Of a DNA stretch of 64,000 nucleotides, positions 29,657 through 32,148 are shown piece after piece. Made by a program: the position numbers and the translations under genes. The notes under the pieces were generated by a model. That model made no database searches. It had not been told where the DNA came from and was given only the letters and a program-made list of their open reading frames with translations. This stretch comes from Gimesia sp. (GTDB lineage: Bacteria; Planctomycetota; Planctomycetia; Planctomycetales; Planctomycetaceae). How positions within the stretch are numbered: position 1 is the stretch's first letter; each line of letters opens with the position of its first letter. The DNA lies in the NCBI RefSeq assembly GCF_040219335.1, contig NZ_JAVJSQ010000014.1, positions 1 to 64,000 of the forward strand. Reading direction: 5' to 3'.

Positions 29657-29687
29657 TTGACATATCGTAACATCACGATATTATATA
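29657..29687 (+). promoter_or_regulatory. Promoter of the arsR-rhodanese unit
   Basis: A consensus TTGACA at 29657-29662 is followed after 17-19 bases by an AT-rich -10 region (ATTATATA, about 29680-29687). The spacer is filled by an inverted repeat, the usual position for a repressor that blocks RNA polymerase. Confidence 0.65.
29662..29681. promoter_or_regulatory. ArsR-type operator 1 (inverted repeat)
   Basis: ATATCGT-N6-ACGATAT is a perfect 7-base inverted repeat lying between -35 and -10 of the arsR promoter. A near copy (ATATCGT-N6-ACGACAT) lies at 30029-30048 in front of the rhodanese gene. The shared sequence next to a winged-helix regulator gene suggests that both are its binding sites. 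Confidence 0.7.
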
Positions 29688-29701
29688 CATGAGGTAAGAT
29701 T

Positions 29702-30010
29702 ATGAAACTGAAAGAAACTCCCAATTATGACGGCCCCGCACTGGAACAGGCAGCAGAATGCCTGAAGGTTTTGGCGCATCCGGCTCGGATCCGTATCGTG
29801 CAACTGCTTCTGCGCGGACGGTACACCGTAGGTGAGTTGGCTGAAGACTGTGGAATTCCCAGCAACGTTGCTTCAGAGCATCTGCGTCTGATGCAGCGCT
29901 GTGGTTTCTTTGTGAGTGAACGGGAAGGCCGGAGCGTCTACTACAGTGTGGCCGAGCCTCATTTAAACAAGATCATGGATTGCATCGAAGGACGTTTTTT
30001 CCAGTCCTGA
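29702..30010 (+). CDS. ArsR-family winged-helix regulator
   Basis: This 102-residue protein has the ArsR/SmtB fold: CLKVLAHPARIRIVQLL (helix 2-3), then the recognition region GELAEDCGIPSNVASEHLRL, and the wing SEREGRSVYYSV. Cysteines are at residues 20, 50, 67 and 94. Context with rhodanese and persulfide-type genes suggests a sulfur-species sensor of the BigR/SqrR kind. The Cys in the helix-2 position typical of BigR/SqrR is not present (IRIVQL), so sensing may use another Cys pair. ATG follows GAGG. It probably represses its own promoter through the two adjacent operators. Confidence 0.85.
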   Translation: MKLKETPNYDGPALEQAAECLKVLAHPARIRIVQLLLRGRYTVGELAEDCGIPSNVASEHLRLMQRCGFFVSEREGRSVYYSVAEPHLNKIMDCIEGRFFQS

Positions 30011-30028
30011 GCATTTTTTTACAACAAC

Positions 30029-30048
30029 ATATCGTAAATTCACGACAT
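30029..30048. promoter_or_regulatory. ArsR-type operator 2 (before rhodanese gene)
   Basis: ATATCGT-N6-ACGACAT matches operator 1 in 13 of its 14 half-site bases and lies between the arsR stop and the rhodanese start. It may control an internal promoter. Confidence 0.6.
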
Positions 30049-30063
30049 TACGAGGTATCAATC

Positions 30064-30630
30064 ATGGCAGAAGTCAAAACCATCACACCGGAAGCATTGG
30101 CCCGGCTGCACAGTCAACAGGATGTCGCAGTCATTGACGTACGGACTCCTGCGGAATTCCGGGAAGTCCACGCCACAATCGCCCGCAACATTCCCCTGGA
30201 CAAGATCGGTACAGACCATATTGAAGAGCTGACAAATGGCAGCACTGACGAGCCGGTCTACATTATCTGTCAGAGCGGAAACCGTTCGTCCCGCGCCTGC
30301 CAGAAACTGATCGAAGCAGGCTGTCCGAACGTGGTCAGCGTCGAAGGGGGCACCAAAGCCTGGGAAGCACAGGGGTTGCCCGTCGAACGTGGTAAAAAAA
30401 CGATTTCCCTGGAACGTCAGGTTCGGATTGCAGCTGGTTTCCTGGTCTTTACCGGTGCCATGCTGGGCATGTTCGTTAATCCCTGGTTCAGTGGGATCTC
30501 GGCGTTCGTCGGGGCAGGATTAATGTTTGCCGGTATTACTGATACCTGTGGGATGGCAATGGTACTCGCCAAAATGCCCTGGAATCAGGTTGCCGGCTGT
30601 GAACAGCAACAGTGTCAAAAAACAGCTTAA
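30064..30630 (+). CDS. Rhodanese-domain protein with C-terminal membrane helices
   Basis: This 188-residue protein has an N-terminal rhodanese domain (VAVIDVRTPAEFREVHA, then the active-site loop IICQSGNRSSRAC with Cys at about residue 79). Two hydrophobic helices follow (QVRIAAGFLVFTGAMLGMF and GAGLMFAGITDTCGMAMVLA) of the DUF2892 type. Rhodaneses move sulfane sulfur between thiols and persulfides; the anchor puts this one at the inner membrane. ATG at 30064 follows a GAGG at about 9 bases. The frame is open back into arsR but that extension is unlikely. The next gene begins 17 bases after its stop. Confidence 0.85.
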   Translation: MAEVKTITPEALARLHSQQDVAVIDVRTPAEFREVHATIARNIPLDKIGTDHIEELTNGSTDEPVYIICQSGNRSSRACQKLIEAGCPNVVSVEGGTKAWEAQGLPVERGKKTISLERQVRIAAGFLVFTGAMLGMFVNPWFSGISAFVGAGLMFAGITDTCGMAMVLAKMPWNQVAGCEQQQCQKTA

Positions 30631-30647
30631 AAGCGGAGGGTCCTGCA

Positions 30648-32024
30648 ATGTTCTTTCAACGTCACTATCTGGATTGTCTGTCGCTGGCATCTTACATGAT
30701 TGCCGATGAAGAAACGGGCGACGCGGTTGTCGTCGACCCCCAACGTGATATTGAGATTTACCTCGAAGATGCGAAAGAGCACGGCCTGCAAATCAAACAC
30801 GTGATCCTGACTCACTTCCACGCCGATTTTATTGCCGGTCACATTGAACTGCAGAAAGCCGTAGGTGCTCAGATCTATCTGGGCAGCAGGGGCGCAGCAG
30901 AATTCTCTCACCAGTCCCTCGCGGAAGGTGATGAAGTGCTGCTGGGTTCTGTGAGAATCACAACCATGGAAACCCCGGGACACACGCCGGAAGGCATCTC
31001 GCTGGTCGTTTATGACCTGAAAGAGAATCCGGATCAGCCCCAAATGATTCTGACAGGAGACACCCTCTTCCTGGGAGACGTTGGTCGCCCCGACCTGCTG
31101 GCTTCCCTGGGTGCCACCGCCGAAGAATTGGGAGGCATGTTGTATGACTCTCTCCATGAGAAGATCCTGAAGCTGCCGGATGAAACTCTGGTCTATCCAG
31201 CGCATGGGGCAGGCTCCATGTGTGGAAAACAGCTCAGCAGTGAAGCGGTCACCACACTCGGAGAGCAGCGGCGCTATAATTACGCTCTGCAGCCGATGAG
31301 CAAAGCCGCCTTCATTGATATGGTCACCACCGATCTTCCGGAAGCACCACAGTACTTTGTGCATGATGCAATTCTGAATCGCAAGGAACGTCAGACCCTG
31401 GATGAAAGCATCAAAGCCGCCTGGCATGCCTACTCGCTCGCTGAAGTACAGCAGATGCTCAACAGCGGAACACAGGTGATCGACGTCCGCGATGCCGCCG
31501 AATTCGCAGCAGGTCATCTGAAAGGGAGTATCAATATCGGTCTGGAAGGTCGCTACGCCACATGGGCAGGTACGATGCTGGATAAGCAGGCCCCTATCGT
31601 GGTGATTGCGAGTGAAGAAGATCAGATCGAAGAAGCAATCATTCGCCTGGGACGGATTGGTTTTGACCACGTAAAAGGATTCCTGAAAGATGGCCTCAAC
31701 AGCCTTCAGGACCACCCCGAACTGGTCTCTCAAACCAGGCGGATTTCTGCCCAGGCCATGCAGGAACTGAACGAGCAGGTCACCATTATCGATATTCGTA
31801 CGCCCGCTGAATGGAATACAGGGCATATTGAGAACAGCATCAACATCCCCTTAAATCACCTGGCAGAGCATCTGTCTGAGATCCCCCGGGACCAGACGGT
31901 GATCGTCCACTGCCAGGGAGGCTACCGTTCATCCATTGCCGCCAGCCTGCTGGAAAAACAGGGATTTGACAACATCATCGACCTGGTGGGAGGCTTCAGA
32001 GCCTGGCAGACGATCGCTGCCTGA
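30648..32024 (+). CDS. MBL-fold plus tandem rhodanese protein (persulfide dioxygenase/CstB-like)
   Basis: This 458-residue protein has an N-terminal metallo-beta-lactamase domain with LTHFHADFIAGH at about 53-64, the metal motif of the ETHE1/CstB branch. TMETPGHTPEG, LTGDTLFLGDVGRPDL and YPAHGAGS follow. Two rhodanese domains complete it. The first (GTQVIDVRDAAEFAAGHL) lacks an active Cys, while the second (VTIIDIRTPAEWNTGHI) has VHCQGGYRSS with Cys near residue 421. CstB-type enzymes oxidise persulfides to sulfite and thiosulfate. ATG follows GGAGG. Together with ArsR and the rhodanese it forms a sulfide/persulfide detoxification unit ended by a terminator. Confidence 0.85.
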   Translation: MFFQRHYLDCLSLASYMIADEETGDAVVVDPQRDIEIYLEDAKEHGLQIKHVILTHFHADFIAGHIELQKAVGAQIYLGSRGAAEFSHQSLAEGDEVLLGSVRITTMETPGHTPEGISLVVYDLKENPDQPQMILTGDTLFLGDVGRPDLLASLGATAEELGGMLYDSLHEKILKLPDETLVYPAHGAGSMCGKQLSSEAVTTLGEQRRYNYALQPMSKAAFIDMVTTDLPEAPQYFVHDAILNRKERQTLDESIKAAWHAYSLAEVQQMLNSGTQVIDVRDAAEFAAGHLKGSINIGLEGRYATWAGTMLDKQAPIVVIASEEDQIEEAIIRLGRIGFDHVKGFLKDGLNSLQDHPELVSQTRRISAQAMQELNEQVTIIDIRTPAEWNTGHIENSINIPLNHLAEHLSEIPRDQTVIVHCQGGYRSSIAASLLEKQGFDNIIDLVGGFRAWQTIAA

Positions 32025-32082
32025 GAAGCCGAAGCAAGATCTGATTTTGCGGAAGGCGAAAATATCGCCGCAGGTACAATAG

Positions 32083-32127
32083 AAAAACCTTTGCCCGATC
32101 CATTAAAATGGGGCAAAGGTTTTTTAT
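32083..32127 (+). terminator. Rho-independent terminator after the persulfide unit
   Basis: The 14-base stem AAAAACCTTTGCCC / GGGCAAAGGTTTTT has a 14-base loop and is followed by more T. It is the end of the arsR-rhodanese-MBL unit. The symmetric A and T tracts mean it might also act in the other direction, but no minus-strand gene ends here. Confidence 0.9.
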
Positions 32128-32148
32128 TTATCCCTGACAGGTTTGACC

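Follow-up and report, generated by a model that had tools for sequence, protein, structure and literature searches.

The repressors of the BigR/Blh, SqrR and Staphylococcus CstR/CstB systems control genes that handle sulfide and persulfide. Escherichia coli ygaVP resembles the locus described here in that the gene of an ArsR-family autorepressor, the SqrR/BigR homologue YgaV, is followed by the gene of a rhodanese-membrane protein. At its own gene, YgaV is described as binding across the site of the polymerase (PMC9774250; here and below, the cited articles are drawn on in excerpt), and two common cysteines are given as the mark of the BigR/SqrR/YgaV regulator group (PMC12423496). The present locus lies in a 64,000-nucleotide stretch of Gimesia sp. 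DNA (contig NZ_JAVJSQ010000014.1, positions 1 to 64,000), hereafter the window, and forms a single co-directional unit at 29657-32125: promoter with operator 1, arsR, a run of seven T residues (T7), operator 2, a ygaP-like gene, a CstB-like gene and a terminator. In E. coli the ygaV-ygaP gap is 9 bp and holds no T-run or second operator, unlike the junction in this unit. What is new here is a promoter-less second operator, located behind a spaced T-run between the repressor gene and the enzyme genes. We lean towards the reading that this second site acts on elongation through the T-run, as a repressor-gated roadblock terminator. The features that bear on this reading are as follows.

29657-29684, + strand: sigma70-type promoter, with -35 TTGACA at 29657-29662 and -10 TATTAT at 29679-29684 (11/12, spacer 16)
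29662-29681, unstranded: operator 1, a perfect 7+7 inverted repeat, ATATCGTAACATCACGATAT, that fills the promoter spacer
29702-30010, + strand: arsR, predicted to encode an ArsR/SmtB-family repressor of 102 amino acids (aa) with C20, C50, C67 and C94
30014-30020, + strand: coding-strand T7 run, 8 bp ahead of operator 2
30029-30048, unstranded: operator 2, ATATCGTAAATTCACGACAT, an inverted repeat with one mismatch, between arsR and the effector genes
30051-30053, + strand: extra CGA triplet resembling a half-site, 3' of operator 2, overlapping the ribosome-binding site in the window

An earlier note on this DNA had proposed two matched operators flanking arsR, and both are confirmed at these positions and conserved in relatives; they are the sole places in the window that lie within two mismatches of the pattern. 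The placement of site 1 exactly between -35 and -10 needs a small correction, since the repeat fills the spacer but overlaps the -35 hexamer by 1 base and the -10 hexamer by 3 bases. Site 2 was rightly put between arsR and the rhodanese gene, which starts with the ATG at 30064. The suggestion of two operators, perhaps of different strength, holds as to their number; it passed over the T7 run, and with it the polar module of T-run, 8-bp gap and operator.

To define the recurrence of these elements, the window's genome (G000, contig C14) was compared with 16 relatives of the same genus. A first comparison set comprised 44 loci in genomes of the same genus, the same family and the same class, and a second the best 80 of 399 arsR relatives, of which 77 are titled Planctomycetota or their taxa, one Lentisphaeria, and two 'bacterium' only. 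Sites were scored as matches out of 12 to ATRTCG-N8-CGAYAT, and a site was counted as present at 10/12 or better, no more than 160 bp ahead of the arsR match for site 1 and within 130 bp after the arsR stop for site 2. The shuffles used for the site-frequency, T-run and promoter tests preserve base content only.

Within the genus, both sites are present in 16 of 16 loci holding the gene, the window's own counted; a close match to the gene was not found in the 17th genome (G015), which is 74% complete. Among the 80 loci, site 1 occurs upstream of arsR in 75 (1.5% in shuffled sequences) and site 2 behind arsR in 43 (1.3% shuffled). As far as sequence comparison can tell, the recurrence of both sites is not chance. 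The site-1 profile, built from the 65 loci that score at least 11 and have sufficient flank, reads TTGAC followed by ATRTCGNNANNTNNCGATAT and continues into the -10 element; by this profile, site 1 is a promoter and an operator fused. The site-2 profile (43 loci) has neither promoter hexamer, with T at +11 in 91% and A at +8 in 60%. The same 43 loci carry an extra CGA at +22 to +24 (C 77%, G 72%, A 91%).

This CGA triplet stands 8 bp past the right half of site 2 and is absent at site 1. It resembles a half-site and could recruit a second dimer.

The T-run accompanies site 2 closely. Six or more consecutive T within 60 bp after the arsR stop and ahead of site 2 are found in 32 of the 43 loci with the site vs 1 of the 24 scoring 8 or less (Fisher p 1.3e-8, with rows treated as independent). 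The 12 loci whose site-2 score is 9, 7 of them with at least six T, stand in neither arm. Owing to its short sequence after arsR, one locus (L128) was left out of this count, which used 79 of 80, and of the tree described below (79 rows). Runs of six A occur in the same zone between the arsR stop and site 2 in 1 of 43 loci, and, as a background, T6 lies within 60 bp of 7 of 421 other mechanically called open reading frame (ORF) ends. The spacing to the operator is the nearly fixed element: a gap of 8 is the best, alone or tied, in 25 of the 40 loci with at least six T, and the distance from the arsR stop to the T-run varies from 0 to 39 bases in the same loci.

The spacing was also evaluated by a matched scan of 397 class genomes for T6, 0-25 bases and the exact operator, with the backward pattern as control. 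The scan yields 54 distinct site-strands in 50 genomes, vs 1 for the control. The gap is exactly 8 in 31 of the 54, and any other gap accounts for at most 3; outside the window's genus, it is 8 in 21 of 39 site-strands (one site being counted on both strands). The T6-N8-operator pattern itself occurs at 34 places in 33 genomes, with none for the control, and at three of these (G002, G003 and G007) the run is longer and the true gap is 7, 7 and 6. A T7-N7 search finds three places, all within the 34, and is not a matched control. When 30 of the T6-N8 places were fetched, 13 of them from the window's genus, 29 turned out to follow, in the same orientation, an arsR of this family, including L208, in which the arsR match stops 166 bp ahead of the place; the remaining one, L191, is a site of the promoter type.

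Several genomes carry this arsR in two copies (L104/L116, L146/L163, L129/L157 and L139/L152). In L146/L163 and L129/L157, the module is at one copy and not at the other. In G080, the T6-N8-operator pattern occurs twice (C1:2000132 and C1:4563701).

In the 25-bp flanks of site 2, T6 lies upstream in 31 of 43 loci, and A6 upstream, A6 downstream and T6 downstream are each found in 0 of 43. The flanks of site 1 (n = 75) hold T6 upstream in 1, A6 upstream in 6, A6 downstream in 2 and T6 downstream in 1. By these counts the T-run is polar, lying on the coding strand at the upstream side of site 2. The polarity bears on the possibility that the T7 (A7) tract is an extended contact of ArsR, for example of its basic N-terminal tail in the narrow minor groove of the tract, site 2 then being just a second binding site with no effect on elongation. 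The rigid gap, the lysine-rich N-termini of several orthologues and the solved structure of NolR, a fold relative, with AT-rich DNA (by its entry title) would suit such a contact. However, the tract is missing at site 1 and unmirrored at site 2, though the dimer is symmetric, and we regard this explanation as quite improbable.

The polarity also argues against DNA looping, in which ArsR dimers at the two sites would together tighten repression of the promoter and the T-run would be a bend that aids the loop. A bend should be usable both ways round, but none of the 43 loci has A6 downstream. The spacing of the two sites in the window, 367 bp or approximately 35 turns, would be compatible with a loop, but across 41 loci this distance varies between 358 and 512 and is weakly phased (R 0.24, p ~0.09). 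We know of no looping by a dimeric ArsR. Looping seems very unlikely to us.

Alternatively, the enzyme genes could have a second promoter of their own inside the unit, with site 2 as its operator, and the T-run could mark where an ordinary terminator of arsR ends. In the 41 loci carrying both sites, the mean promoter score at site 2 is 7.59/12 vs 7.53 for shuffled sequences, and that at site 1 is 10.6. An internal promoter was therefore rejected as a general explanation, its scores being equal to those of shuffles. Hairpins ahead of the T-run are not general either: their mean is -4.5 vs -3.0 kcal/mol for shuffled sequences (p 0.15), none is found in 15 of 40 loci, and the window stretch 29950-30028 has no unusual hairpin stability (z -0.14). 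An ordinary intrinsic terminator at the T-run was likewise rejected as a general explanation, the hairpin set being not significantly different from its shuffles; such a terminator would also leave the 8-bp gap to the operator unexplained. On the other side, the loop of site 2 is -10-like in the window's genus (30035-30040 in the window; site 2 of L099-L103), reading TATAAT, TAAAAT, TATATT or TAAATT, and most loci outside the genus are not -10-like. In addition, a hairpin of -11 kcal/mol or better immediately precedes the T-run in eight loci (L111, L112, L113, L132, L136, L150, L169 and L173). A lineage-specific internal promoter in the window's genus is possible, and in those eight loci the arrangement may shade into a genuine intrinsic terminator. 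As an account of the arrangement as a whole, a second promoter behind an arsR terminator appears rather improbable.

Together with the -10-like loop of the genus, several findings weigh against an action of site 2 on elongation. Of the 43 loci with site 2, 11 lack a run of six or more T. Moreover, site 2 scores no higher than 8 in 24 of 79 loci, of which 16 keep a ygaP-like gene behind arsR, so that the module must be dispensable. On the tree of 79 ArsR proteins the module label needs 22 changes, at least 8 of them forced by starred branches, vs a shuffled mean of 26.2; the module has therefore been gained or lost repeatedly and is hardly clustered on the tree. In tree-controlled independent pairs, T-run and site 2 agree in 3.8 of 5 on average with a median p of 0.125, a number of pairs that cannot reach significance. 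Finally, in yeast, a roadblock with a T-rich stretch released RNA only with a hairpin (PMC12366685).

The genes behind the module, and the end of the unit, are as follows.

30064-30630, + strand: ygaP-like gene, ATG at 30064, 188 aa, predicted rhodanese and YgaP-type membrane domain (PF00581, PF11127)
30648-32024, + strand: CstB-like gene, 458 aa, predicted metallo-beta-lactamase (persulfide-dioxygenase-like) and two rhodanese stretches (Pfam, structure matches)
32082-32125, + strand: intrinsic terminator of the operon, a minimum-free-energy stem of 15 pairs

The first of these products had been called a rhodanese. The rhodanese domain is there (PF00581, 59.1 bits), and a YgaP-type membrane domain (PF11127, 37.5 bits), which went unmentioned, accompanies it; both are above cut-off, and the PDB matches include YgaP. 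For the third gene of the unit, the assignment as a CstB-like enzyme of metallo-beta-lactamase and double-rhodanese type is borne out: Pfam finds metallo-beta-lactamase and rhodanese domains, and the protein aligns near full length to 3tp9 (1-454, 311 bits) and to 3r2u (1-452, 240 bits), the latter of which we take to be S. aureus CstB. The protein is thus, by prediction, a metallo-beta-lactamase domain and two rhodanese domains over its full length. The terminator is real, with 15 pairs in place of the 14-base stem first described, and none of 200 shuffles of the stretch 32050-32135 is equally stable (z -5.6). A ygaP-like gene lies within 500 bp behind arsR in 60 of the 80 loci.

A genome scan for the inverted repeat, which had been proposed as a check, is informative only with the exact pattern. 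With one mismatch allowed, it returns 55 places in the window's genome vs 9 in the control, which is too noisy to define a regulon, and therefore 20 exact-pattern places in the genus were followed. The third exact site in the window's genome (C19:502047-502066) precedes a TauE/SafE exporter gene and a second CstB-like gene. A TauE-like ORF adjoins the site, by eye, in 10 of the 20 fetched genus loci, the window genome's own included (L065, L066, L068, L070, L071 and L075-L079; Pfam for L065 only), and a DsrE-like gene lies downstream of it in two congeners (L073 and L074; Pfam for L073 only). Operator matches inside long ORFs, in L080, L081, L082 and L084, look like chance. The sharing of one operator with a TauE/SafE gene and a further CstB-like gene gives good support to a sulfur regulon. 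The earlier view of an autoregulated sulfur-stress operon with two operators agrees with the conserved sites, the gene content and the other operator-bearing loci, and we hold it to be very probable that the unit is a sulfur operon with two operators.

Among the same 20 places, the operator is near an HlyD-type membrane-fusion gene in two congeners (L067 ~3012 and L069 ~3055; Pfam for L067) and near a di-haem cytochrome c peroxidase gene in one (L072 ~2989; Pfam). At L083 ~2991 there is an intergenic exact match, ATGTCGCCAAAAAACGACAT, which is identical or near-identical in G006 and G008. In L147, L150 and L160, a flavin adenine dinucleotide-dependent oxidoreductase (MKIVIIGGVAGGASAAARARR...) follows arsR and the T-run/site-2 region by eye; it is perhaps a coenzyme A-disulfide or persulfide reductase.

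The regulator is a member of the ArsR/SmtB family. It scores 78.6 bits against the generic ArsR/SmtB metalloregulator model NF033788 (cut-off 55), PF01022 and PF12840 are both above cut-off, and its predicted model (predicted local distance difference test score 92.4; helices 11-24, 27-36, 43-50, 54-66 and 88-99) has a fold that resembles those of SmtB, YgaV, BigR and SqrR. The earlier note had placed it with BigR and SqrR, an assignment that did not survive. The BigR family model NF040642 gives 46.2 bits, below its cut-off of 155, and YgaV's two cysteines align to Q34 and F100, positions at which none of the 80 relatives has Cys; YgaV was the sequence used for this comparison, to which BigR and SqrR themselves were not aligned. 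Membership of the BigR/SqrR group was rejected on these two grounds. The conserved cysteines among the 80 relatives are instead C20 (80), C50 (72), C67 (78) and C94 (79), of which C20 falls by position within the first helix of the model and C94 within the fifth, and YgaV is without these four. The protein may act like BigR, SqrR and YgaV, but, with the YgaV-type cysteines missing, it is outside their group by the defining feature tested.

What this sensor responds to is probably sulfane sulfur. The regulator might otherwise sense a metal or peroxide, with the sulfur enzymes mending thiol damage; the four conserved cysteines, the fit of the generic metalloregulator model (78.6 bits) and the di-haem peroxidase and HlyD-type genes near the site in a few congeners speak for this. 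The targets that recur, however, have to do with sulfur (ygaP-like genes in 60 of the 80 loci, and CstB-like, TauE/SafE and DsrE-like genes), and a metal or peroxide signal is unlikely in our judgement.

The T-run spans positions -15 to -9 of operator 2, which would be the zone expected for the active centre of a blocked polymerase. Since site 2 has no promoter, no general hairpin and no good phasing, the elongating polymerase is the target that we infer as its best reading. In the proposed mechanism, apo-ArsR on operator 1 would block the promoter, and leaky transcripts would still traverse arsR. ArsR on operator 2 would then halt the polymerase while its active centre, approximately 9-15 bp short of the site, is over the T7 run; the weak rU:dA hybrid formed there would favour backtracking and release. 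The regulator would be kept topped up in this way, and the rhodanese and the CstB-like enzyme would remain off. Upon modification of the four-cysteine sensor by sulfane sulfur, ArsR would quit both sites and the whole operon would be transcribed. On balance, we favour the interpretation of the unit as an autoregulated sulfane-sulfur or persulfide stress operon; the binding of ArsR, the stop and release of the polymerase, the inducer and the cysteine chemistry are steps that we infer. In its fullest form, the proposal is of a hairpin-free, ligand-controlled terminator made of a repressor and T7 at a nearly fixed 8 bp, widespread in Planctomycetota and combined with a new four-cysteine sulfane-sulfur sensor; this we put forward tentatively, as the less probable outcome.

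If the mechanism is true, the locus would be a natural and recurrent case of a repressor that acts on initiation and termination together. The T-run and the operator at 8 bp would constitute a two-part code, searchable in other operons, and would make it practicable to ask whether bacterial polymerase can be released by a protein block and a U-tract in the absence of a hairpin. The analysis also points to a persulfide-type regulon of Planctomycetota governed by an ArsR protein whose set of cysteines differs from that of YgaV.

Relative to the BigR, SqrR and CstR systems, the regulator differs in its cysteine positions, and the junction differs in the module of T-run, 8-bp gap and operator. We know of no such module in the BigR/Blh, SqrR or CstR/CstB loci, which were not scanned for it. 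The module is not described in the titles and abstract openings among the literature matches listed, a search that left subscription journals mostly outside.

The layout suggested by the sequence, a protein site inside the unit with a T-rich stretch approximately 15 bp upstream, is that of a roadblock terminator. Reb1/Nsi1 halts yeast RNA polymerase I (Pol I) in a non-template-strand T-rich stretch, 15 bp before the site to which the protein is bound, and the hairpin-free release of Pol I is a disputed point (PMC12366685). The two arrangements appear analogous in having a protein site and a T-rich stretch upstream of it, and they differ in that the present one belongs to a bacterial operon, is presumably relieved by an inducer and has no general hairpin. 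In the fullest and less probable form of our proposal, the element would be what the Reb1/T-rich Pol I terminator is in yeast, but in a prokaryote, where it would separate a regulator gene from its effectors. In bacteria, roadblock termination is described as being aided by Mfd (PMC10310618), and LacI at O3 as roadblocking transcription (PMC3711431). LacI, however, truncates its own gene, whereas here arsR would be left intact, the effectors would be cut off, and a spaced T-run is conserved. In engineered circuits, a second ArsR site behind arsR reduces background (PMC3918153). These arsR-ABS-reporter circuits resemble the arrangement proposed here in that a repressor downstream of the promoter stops transcription, and the two-part code, if true, could be moved into such reporters, in which the second repressor site was placed by hand.

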